NCBI RefSeq assembly: GCF_018129025.1
Contig: NZ_JAAEDI010000011.1
Location: 62,001-126,000 of the forward strand
Source of the DNA: Neoroseomonas terrae
GTDB taxonomy: Bacteria; Pseudomonadota; Alphaproteobacteria; Acetobacterales; Acetobacteraceae
Reading direction: 5' to 3'
DNA: 64,000 nt
Every line of letters starts with the position of its first letter. Positions within the stretch are counted from its first letter, which is position 1. Of the stretch, positions 29,106 to 31,015 are shown one piece after another. The translations under genes were made by a program, and so were the position numbers. The notes under the pieces were generated by a model, which was not told the DNA's origin, ran no database searches, and was given only the letters and a program-made list of their open reading frames with translations.

Positions 29106-29248
29106 GTACAGATCTCCAGAGGTCTGCGCAGGCCGGGACGGGCGTGATTGGGCGCGCTGCGGCGCCGCCCGCAGCATGCCGGGGGAGAGGCCGCGGCGCC
29201 AGCCATGCCCTTGCCGCCGGCGCCGAATGCGATCAATTTGATGACGGA

Positions 29249-29340
29249 CACCTTGGGGAGCCCCGTCCGGGGGCTGAGAGGCGGGCTTCACCCGCGACCC
29301 ATGGAACCTGATCCGGTTCGGACCGGCGAAGGGAACGGTG
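29249..29340 (+). ncRNA. TPP riboswitch (THI element)
   Basis: The core matches the thiamine-pyrophosphate aptamer. Stem P1 is CACC (29249-29252) with GGTG (29337-29340). GGGGAGC, then the pyrimidine-sensor CTGAGA (29274-29279), the P3 hairpin GCGGG/CCCGC (29281-29295), the conserved GGAACCTGATC (29303-29313) and the pyrophosphate-sensor loop GGCGAAGGGA (29325-29334) follow in order. It sits about 100 nt upstream of a family-5 solute-binding protein, so that gene should be repressed by intracellular TPP. Confidence 0.93.
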
Positions 29341-29408
29341 CCACCCGTTCGTCCGCGCGTTTAGCCCGTGAAGGGGGCCGTGCGCGCGGTCGCGCCGCGG
29401 GCGTCGTT

Positions 29409-29426
29409 CTCCATGCCGGCATGGAG
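29409..29426 (+). promoter_or_regulatory. Palindromic hairpin occluding the riboswitch-controlled ribosome binding site
   Basis: CTCCATGCCGGCATGGAG is an 18-nt perfect palindrome. Its 3' arm, together with the next G, contains the Shine-Dalgarno GGAGG (29423-29427), about 10 nt before the ATG at 29438. It is a natural expression platform for a translation-inhibiting TPP riboswitch, the usual mode in proteobacteria. I see no intrinsic terminator between the aptamer and the gene. Confidence 0.6.
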
Positions 29427-29437
29427 GTACGAAGGTT

Positions 29438-31015
29438 ATGCATCGCCGCGCCGTGCTTGCCGCCGCCCTGGCCACGCCCCTCGCGCGCGCCGCCGTCGCG
29501 CAGGATGCGCGCGGTCGCCTCCTGCGCTTCATGCCGCAGGCCGCCCTCGCCTCGTTGGACCCGGTGTTCAACCCGAGCACCATCATCACCACCCATGCCT
29601 ATTGCGTGTTCGACACGCTCTACGGCGCCGACCGGTCGCTCACCGCGCGGCCGCAGATGGCGGAGGGCCATGTCGTCGAGGATGGCGACCGCACCGTGCG
29701 CATCCGCCTGCGCGACGGGCTGCGCTGGCATGACGGCGAACCGGTACGCGCCGCGGATTGCGTCGCCTCCATCAATCGCTGGGGCAGCCGCGACGGCTTC
29801 GGCGGGCTGCTGCTGCGCGCGACGGAGGAACTCGCCGCCGCCGACGACCGCACCATCGCCTTCCGCCTGAAACGCCCCTTCCCCGCCCTGTTCGACGCGC
29901 TAGCGAAGCCCGGCTCCTCCCCCTGCTTCATGATGCCGGAGCGCATCGCCAGCCTGCCGGCGGACCGCCCCCTCGGCGTCGAGCACATGATCGGGTCCGG
30001 CCCCTGGCGCTTCGTCGCCGCCGACTACGTGCAGGGCGCGCGCAGCACCTACGTCCGCAACGCCGACTACCGGCCCCGCAGCGAGCCCGCCGAGGCCGCG
30101 ACCGGCGGCAAGGTCGTGCATTTCGACCGCCTGGAACTGATCTGGATCCCCGATGGCGGCACGGCCGCGGCCGCGCTGCGCACCGGGGAGATCGACTGGA
30201 TCGAGTACCCCCTGCCCGACCTGGTCCCGGTGCTGGAACGCGATCGGCACACGAAGACGCAGATCTACGACCCGAACGGCTTCCTCGGCTTCCTGCGCTT
30301 CAACCACCTGCACCCGCCCTTCAACGACGTGCGGGTGCGGCGCGCGATCCGCGACGTGATCGTGCAATCGGACTTCATGTCGGCCGTCGCGCTGGAAGGG
30401 GACTGGCAGGAATGCCACGCCATGTTCCCCTGCGGCCTGCCCGACGTGGTGGAATTCCCCCCCGCGCCCCGTGGCGACGCCGCCATGGCCCGCGCGCGGG
30501 AGGCGATCCGCGCCGCCGGCTACAACGGTGAGCCGATCGTCCACATCAACCCGTCCGACTTCAACGCGGTGACGCAGCAGGGCCGGTTGACGGTCGAGTT
30601 GATGCGCCGCCTCGGGCTGAACATCCAGCCGGTCGAATCGGACTGGGCGTCGATCCTCGGCCGCCGCAACAACCGCAACCCGCCGGCACAGGGCGGGTGG
30701 AACCTGCACAACACCAACGGGCCGGCGGCGACCATCGCGAACCCCGCCGTCTCCTTCGCCATCCGCATGAACGGCCCGGCCGCCTGGCCCGGCTGGCCGG
30801 AGGATGCGGCGGTGGAGGAACAGGTGCAGGCCTGGGTCGACGCCCCGACGGCCGAGGCGCAGTCGGTGGCGATGCGGCGGCTTCAGGAACTCGCCTGGGA
30901 CGCCGTGCCATTTGCGCCGACCGGCCTGTTCCGGCTGCGGACGGCCTTCCGGTCCGACCTGACCGGGGTGTTGCAGGGGCCGAACCCGTTCGTGTGGAAC
31001 CTCAGGCGGGGGTGA
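29438..31015 (+). CDS. Family-5 extracellular solute-binding protein under TPP riboswitch
   Basis: A 525-residue ABC-type substrate-binding protein of the dipeptide/oligopeptide (SBP_bac_5) class. A signal peptide of about 22 residues ends in AVAQ. The family pattern appears as ARPQMAEGHVVEDGDRTVRIRLRDGLRWHDGEPVRAADCVAS (split over residues 70-110), then MIGSGPW and VRRAIRDVIVQ. Members deliver peptides, opines, nickel, haem or other solutes to an ABC permease. No permease or ATPase gene lies nearby; the next gene is convergent. The riboswitch implies a role in acquiring thiamine, a thiamine precursor or a related compound, which is unusual for this family. Confidence 0.9.
   Translation: MHRRAVLAAALATPLARAAVAQDARGRLLRFMPQAALASLDPVFNPSTIITTHAYCVFDTLYGADRSLTARPQMAEGHVVEDGDRTVRIRLRDGLRWHDGEPVRAADCVASINRWGSRDGFGGLLLRATEELAAADDRTIAFRLKRPFPALFDALAKPGSSPCFMMPERIASLPADRPLGVEHMIGSGPWRFVAADYVQGARSTYVRNADYRPRSEPAEAATGGKVVHFDRLELIWIPDGGTAAAALRTGEIDWIEYPLPDLVPVLERDRHTKTQIYDPNGFLGFLRFNHLHPPFNDVRVRRAIRDVIVQSDFMSAVALEGDWQECHAMFPCGLPDVVEFPPAPRGDAAMARAREAIRAAGYNGEPIVHINPSDFNAVTQQGRLTVELMRRLGLNIQPVESDWASILGRRNNRNPPAQGGWNLHNTNGPAATIANPAVSFAIRMNGPAAWPGWPEDAAVEEQVQAWVDAPTAEAQSVAMRRLQELAWDAVPFAPTGLFRLRTAFRSDLTGVLQGPNPFVWNLRRG

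Follow-up and report, generated by a model that had tools for sequence, protein, structure and literature searches.

The stretch of DNA analysed here (the window, 64,000 nucleotides of Neoroseomonas terrae) carries a TPP riboswitch linked to the gene of a solute-binding protein (SBP). Both the riboswitch and the gene are well established, and so is the linkage between them. The features of the locus, all on the forward strand, are the following:

29244..29352, + strand: TPP riboswitch aptamer, full length (cmscan, RF00059)
29325..29337 (ends approximate), + strand: 3' strand of the aptamer, comprising P1 and the end of the TPP site; predicted partner of the anti-Shine-Dalgarno strand (RNAduplex)
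29405..29417, + strand: stretch with the putative anti-Shine-Dalgarno strand, complementary to the Shine-Dalgarno sequence and to the 3' strand of the aptamer (leader folding)
29409..29426, + strand: perfect 18-nt palindrome CTCCATGCCGGCATGGAG (sequence reading)
29423..29427, + strand: Shine-Dalgarno sequence GGAGG (sequence and leader folding)
29438..31015, + strand: family-5 (cluster C) solute-binding protein, 525 aa (PF00496)

This riboswitch is the sole Rfam match of the whole 64-kb window at the gathering thresholds (cmscan). The match to RF00059 scores 70.3 bits (gathering score 54.3, E-value 8.3e-12), covers the model positions 1 to 105 of 105 and contains the core stretches CUGAGA and GNAGGGA. 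A gap of 85 bases separates the end of the aptamer from the ATG at 29438. The window aptamer was aligned with 10 other SBP-linked aptamers and nine thiC- or ABC-linked aptamers. In this alignment, the P5 arm reads GGTT in the 11 SBP-linked sequences, as in the Rfam consensus, and GGGT in the nine thiC- or ABC-linked ones.

The right arm of the palindrome contains most of the GGAGG, and the fold of the full leader predicts a 7-bp hairpin with a CCGG loop over most of the Shine-Dalgarno (SD) sequence, with a pair probability of ~0.9. When the window leader is folded without the aptamer, the mean pairing probability of GGAGG is 0.97, against a mean of 0.52 in dinucleotide shuffles of the leader part preceding GGAGG, where one shuffle of 40 reaches the window value. 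The preliminary description of this locus had reported a near-consensus aptamer and an 18-nt palindrome hiding the GGAGG, and both are recovered here; the start of the aptamer, placed there at 29249, is modelled five bases earlier, at 29244. The predicted anti-SD strand may also pair with the 3' strand of the aptamer, the duplex of 29325-29337 with 29405-29417 having an energy of -14.5 kcal/mol (RNAduplex). In the full window leader, the pair probabilities of this alternative duplex are only about 0.07-0.09 and the SD hairpin dominates (-101.5 kcal/mol with the SD forced open versus -107.0 kcal/mol). The alternative pairing in the window is hardly better than in shuffles (z of -0.8).

A search of a contig database detected 79 loci, composed of 75 loci with orthologues of the SBP (67-91% identity; two are fragments and two come from one metagenome bin) and four loci with paralogues (42-45% identity). 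A covariance model was built from 20 TPP aptamers of the family Acetobacteraceae, 11 of them SBP-linked, and was run on all 79 loci. The loci L131, L161 and L169 were set aside because their upstream DNA was too short, which leaves 72 assessable orthologues. A riboswitch on the coding strand was found upstream of 62 of these 72 (seven of the 62 detected aptamers belonged to the training set of the model itself) and upstream of none of the four paralogues. The search for the same pairing elsewhere, as formerly proposed, thus indicates that it is not unique to the window genome. The records are nearly all labelled as Roseomonas-like organisms, Acetobacteraceae, unclassified Rhodospirillales or Alphaproteobacteria, and the odd labels Asaia and Microbispora correspond to metagenome bins. 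When 120 family genomes were sampled, with at most 12 candidates scored per genome, orthologues at 57-77% identity are present in 13 other genomes, among the matches listed, one of these genomes having a partial orthologue (68% over residues 1-357); below them comes a gap and then relatives at 50% identity or less, again among the matches listed. Among these same matches, a TPP riboswitch is directly upstream in 11 of the 14 orthologue-bearing genomes, the window genome included.

The ten orthologues without riboswitch come from Roseicella (2), Belnapia (5), Paeniroseomonas, Paracraurococcus ruber and Siccirubricoccus sp. G192. Three of these loci (L067, L068 and L074), rechecked at E-values up to 1, gave no TPP match and three matches to other families below the cut-offs, and the minus-strand matches of L118 and L095 (E-values of 0.47 and 0.89) were judged to be chance. 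A tree was obtained from the window orthologue, the orthologues of 59 loci out of 75 (60 orthologues in all) and the four paralogues, after 16 loci that were near-duplicates, fragments or frameshifted had been excluded by hand. Nine switchless orthologues are on this tree, at three places, within a clade that also contains switch-bearing ones; from these scattered placements, the riboswitch looks ancestral and later lost, which is the simpler reading. The Siccirubricoccus sp. G192 orthologue (L167:6001-7523) seems frameshifted, because the length of its match is not a multiple of three, and it is perhaps a decaying copy. A further TPP riboswitch is localized near a contig end at L198:2117-2223 (G090:C405:36116-36222), where it overlaps the 5' part of a TauD-family ORF of the opposite strand, as in the window; it is perhaps the same locus in another strain or as another copy, truncated in the assembly.

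The leaders of the relatives were folded from starts picked by script from the SD and the ATG. Over 62 distinct leaders, the mean pairing probability of the SD is 0.83 versus 0.69 in shuffles, and it is above the shuffled mean of the same leader in 51 of the 62. In several relatives, the SD pairing is not above that of shuffles (40 of 40 shuffles are as high for L155 and 39 of 40 for L158), and the outcome is mixed for the leaders around L100-L114. The alternative pairing between the anti-SD strand and the aptamer has a mean z of -0.8 over these 62 distinct, related leaders, with z below -1.5 in 20 of them, and the strand that pairs with the SD overlaps the alternative duplex in 36 of 57 leaders, so that this predicted alternative pairing receives modest support. 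From these folds we infer a translational repression of the SBP gene by TPP. The riboswitch could also be the relic of a lost thiamine gene, standing now by chance before an unrelated gene, which would agree with the fact that no other thiamine gene was recognised by Pfam near the riboswitch among the window ORFs. This possibility is very remote: the linkage is kept across most orthologues in partly differing neighbourhoods, the leaders are short and the pairing of their SD exceeds on average that of shuffles.

The protein encoded by the ORF 29438-31015 matches SBP_bac_5 (PF00496) with 183.8 bits (cut-off 32.4). This is the only Pfam family detected at an E-value of 0.001, PF09084 (ThiY/NMT1) giving no match, and no NCBIfam cut-off is reached; ten NCBIfam families match at an E-value of 0.001, and ThiB is not among them. 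The N-terminus displays RR followed by a hydrophobic stretch, a feature seen by eye in 32 of 34 N-termini, the remaining two beginning inside the protein. As in the cluster C proteins DppA, OppA, GsiB, NikA and the opine-binding proteins, the fold covers nearly the whole mature chain. The closest solved structure is 8vdx from Bordetella bronchiseptica (39% identity); its entry title mentions no ligand, and a literature search by this entry code found nothing related. According to the entry titles, the fold relatives with solved structures have as ligands peptides, nickel complexes, opines, sugar phosphates and sialic acid. In the available part of a paper on Ketogulonicigenium, family-5 SBPs are assigned to oligopeptide transport and no link with a riboswitch is drawn (PMC3284542).

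From the alignment of the 60 orthologues, we observe 76 positions that are at least 97% fixed and whose residues the four paralogues do not share. His424 is conserved in all 60 orthologues and is profile-aligned to the Asp of the GWAAD stretch of the dipeptide-binding protein 4qfk, a correspondence that comes from an alignment between distant proteins. We take this Asp to anchor the amino group of the peptide in the dipeptide-binding protein. With a His in place of the amino-group-anchoring Asp, the SBP would stand apart from the DppA/OppA subgroup. The window genome encodes at least 11 further family-5 relatives. These relatives, the varied ligands of the fold and the retention of the gene without the switch in ten orthologues would suit an importer of peptides or of another nutrient, whose ligand is not a B1 vitamer and whose control by TPP has a wider metabolic reason. 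The 76 nearly fixed positions, which the four paralogues do not share, speak against such a role, as does the distribution of the riboswitch in the genus (see below), and we consider it improbable.

Upstream of the leader lies a divergent gene of a TauD-type dioxygenase, and the next family-matched ORF downstream of the SBP is EipB-like and on the opposite strand. No ABC permease was detected by Pfam in 15 other ORFs of the window (one encodes a MatE exporter, and several are probably spurious), and no ATPase gene stands beside the SBP among the window ORFs scanned in the same way. A tblastn search with two DppB-type queries, taken from the paralogue loci L170 and L173, found no such permease anywhere in the 64-kb window (E-value of 1e-5). 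A complete ABC importer operon was therefore not found at the SBP locus, and the peptide-type binding protein with no adjoining permease that had first been described stands as such. The same queries match in the four paralogue loci, two of them being the query sources, and give no match in 74 of the 75 orthologue loci, which span at most 6 kb per side and are in some cases much shorter. The sole match, in L146, is localized in the first 386 bases (far edge) on the opposite strand, with 33-35% identity. Thirteen stretches of 13-20 kb around orthologues contain no DppB-type permease either. The lack of such a permease in 74 of 75 loci weighs against the proposed role in transport.

No constant operon partner of the SBP emerges from the 13 orthologue stretches and the window, where a neighbour is shared by at most eight of the 14 loci. 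The TauD-like neighbour was rejected as a part of the unit, since neighbour clustering finds it in common to just three of the 14 loci. At L170:1819-9409, four family-5 SBP genes are in a row before one DppB-type permease gene, three other family-5 SBP genes thus separating the paralogue from the permease, and L171 to L173 contain ORFs that resemble this row in size and order. The gene row of L170 suggests that several SBPs may share one permease. In the window genome, two genes of family-5 SBPs, together with a DppB-DppC pair, are found about 3 to 8 kb from thiSG (L193:13038-18272). The surroundings of thiSG carry DppB or DppC relatives in five of the nine genomes examined. One of these five is G016, which has no SBP orthologue and where the single relative, a DppC, is at the stretch edge; G044, in which ThiC was not found, has no DppB or DppC relative near thiSG. 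A shared permease near thiSG was not accepted as the partner of the SBP.

ThiC makes the pyrimidine half of thiamine. The window genome (5.77 Mb in 67 contigs, 98.3% complete) has a single detected TPP riboswitch, the one upstream of the SBP. The search for ThiC covered 35 genomes of the genus: four gave a match and 31, among them the window genome, gave none. ThiC was not found either in 24 of the 28 genus genomes with at least 90% completeness and at most 5% contamination, nor in the one-contig assembly G126, while the same search detected ThiC in 13 of 14 control genomes. A TPP riboswitch is present in 34 of the 35 genus genomes and a single-copy SBP orthologue likewise in 34; in 33 of these 34, the distance from the riboswitch to the orthologue downstream is 79-120 bases, the exception being G130, where the two are on different contigs. 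Neither was found in G139 (85% complete). Of the 31 genomes in which ThiC was not detected, 30 carry a single TPP riboswitch, which is on the SBP gene in 29 of them. The four ThiC-bearing genomes have two riboswitches each, one upstream of the SBP and the other about 456 bases before the ThiC match. G044, which belongs to another genus, resembles the majority: ThiC was not found and its only riboswitch is on its SBP orthologue.

The window organism thus has the appearance of a pyrimidine auxotroph, with the SBP gene as the only visible member of its TPP regulon. A role in the uptake of B1 vitamers is the likeliest one, given the absence of detected ThiC across most of the genus and the single visible TPP target. 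An importer of an unrelated nutrient would not be expected as the only switch-bearing gene seen in 29 of 31 such genomes. The earlier idea of another thiamine-related ligand or salvage route gains weight for the same reasons (31 of the 35 genus genomes gave no ThiC match, and the SBP is the single target in 29 of these 31). In the family sample, among the matches listed, 12 of the 14 genomes with an orthologue have ThiC, and the gene thus does not serve auxotrophs alone. In this sample, the three genomes with an orthologue without riboswitch (G112, G024 and G088) all have ThiC.

Concerning the other pathway steps, all 10 genomes examined have matches to the ThiE family and to ThiG, including the ThiC-less G000 (the window genome) and G044; the ThiE of G000 scores 171 for an NCBIfam cut-off of 145.1. 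With ThiE and ThiG found and ThiC not, the synthesis of the thiazole and the joining step seem possible and the synthesis of the pyrimidine does not, which points to the pyrimidine half as the ligand. The SBP could instead bind intact thiamine or thiamine phosphate, as an analogue of ThiB on a family-5 scaffold. TPP riboswitches control operons of thiamine synthesis and transport (PMC11477304), and intact thiamine could sustain cells without thiC; its users would however not need ThiE and ThiG, and both are present in G000 and G044. We regard intact thiamine as an unlikely ligand, somewhat less so than an unrelated nutrient.

PF03070 matches were obtained in 10 of 10 genomes. G000 has two PF03070 proteins, but not two copies of TenA, since the stronger match is PqqC in a pqq cluster; the other is TenA-like with a score of 119.2 for an NCBIfam cut-off of 130, and it was kept as weak support. 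One of the PF03070 proteins of G044 passes the cut-off (132.5). In the window genome, the TenA-like gene adjoins mnmA, ferredoxin-like and class-V aminotransferase genes (L191:7757-11269), and the tenA of G044 adjoins mnmA (L204:8389-10163). The window genome also contains nine NMT1-type matches, one of them beside an ABC ATPase gene, and any of these nine proteins could import hydroxymethylpyrimidine (HMP) instead. We assume that a CCCFC-like motif marks the Thi5-type HMP-P synthase. A scan for this motif covered two larger G000 stretches and the loci of all but one of the nine NMT1 matches. It gave a single match, CCCF in L094, which is not on the same strand as the NMT1 match but on the other one, and on this basis a Thi5-type enzyme was not retained as the pyrimidine source. 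ThiY-like relatives of the NMT1-type binding protein of G107 (E-value of 1e-30) occur in none of the 14 orthologue-bearing genomes versus 24 of the 106 others, among the matches listed, a difference that is not significant (Fisher p of 0.07) and is confounded by kinship. A mutual exclusion of the SBP and ThiXYZ was thus not retained as strong evidence.

Taken together, the SBP is probably a TPP-repressed periplasmic protein that binds a B1 vitamer, most likely the pyrimidine, and whose permease would be encoded elsewhere. In the scheme that we infer for the switching direction, export, import, ligand and permease, the 3' strand of the aptamer would pair at low TPP with the anti-SD strand, leaving GGAGG free, so that the SBP would be made and exported. 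At high TPP, the ligand-bound aptamer would close and release the anti-SD strand, and the hairpin would hide GGAGG. In the cells of this genus, mostly without thiC, the SBP would collect HMP, or the aminopyrimidine of degraded thiamine; the captured pyrimidine would pass through the permease encoded elsewhere to a kinase step, and ThiE would join it to the thiazole made with ThiG. Going further, the SBP may represent a new class of B1-precursor binding proteins, capturing the thiamine pyrimidine (HMP or aminopyrimidine), without dedicated permease and making up the whole TPP regulon wherever thiC is missing in the genus, a proposal that we put forward more tentatively, at slightly under even chances. 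If a pyrimidine is bound, family-5 SBPs become B1 uptake proteins, and some members of the family now called components of peptide transport need to be re-examined. The 31 ThiC-less genomes of 35 and their visible TPP regulon of one gene designate a single protein for ligand testing.

In the literature searched, subscription literature lying outside this search, we found no description of a family-5 SBP gene preceded by a TPP riboswitch, and an earlier mention is possible. The comparative genomics of thiamin is said to have been treated by Rodionov and colleagues in 2002. Like other TPP riboswitches (THI element, RF00059), the one of the window has a full aptamer and a leader hairpin over the SD, but it stands before a lone family-5 SBP and not before thiC or an ABC operon. 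The preliminary description had given ThiB and NMT1/ThiY-type proteins as the known thiamine uptake systems, a list that is too short, since YkoF, ThiV and CytX are also described (PMC5627462 and PMC11452348). ThiXYZ, with ThiY, is described as an NMT1-type importer of HMP or base-degraded thiamine (PMC5627462). It shares with the SBP the link to a TPP riboswitch and a periplasmic binding protein, and such operons occur in the family Acetobacteraceae; the window SBP however belongs to PF00496 and not to PF09084, and no permease gene was found beside it. According to PMC11452348, B1 auxotrophy among marine microbes most commonly takes the form of HMP auxotrophy, and ThiV of SAR11 is a sodium:solute symporter of HMP auxotrophs with a TPP riboswitch upstream. 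The two cases have in common the Alphaproteobacteria, the dependence on exogenous HMP (presumed for the window organism) and a riboswitch before the putative uptake gene, whereas ThiV is a symporter and the window protein an ABC-type binding protein. In Clostridioides difficile, a TPP riboswitch also precedes ABC transport genes, which have no significant homology to described thiamine transporters according to PMC11477304, but these form a whole ABC operon and not a lone SBP.

Finally, 31 riboswitch loci of the family genomes, the window included, were sorted by their downstream gene. One downstream cluster follows 18 of them, and its members from G104, G112, G024 and G021 coincide with ThiC matches. 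Six loci precede an ATPase-permease pair, and the operon of G107 in this group also encodes an NMT1-type binding protein. The SBP studied here follows two loci, an oxidoreductase resembling ThiO by eye follows one, and ThiG follows another. The three remaining loci precede one cluster of genes (L002:1598-3103, L009:1600-3105 and L026), and a TonB receptor plug domain was found in both of the two members that were tested, which suggests that these riboswitch-linked genes may serve in the uptake of B1 across the outer membrane.
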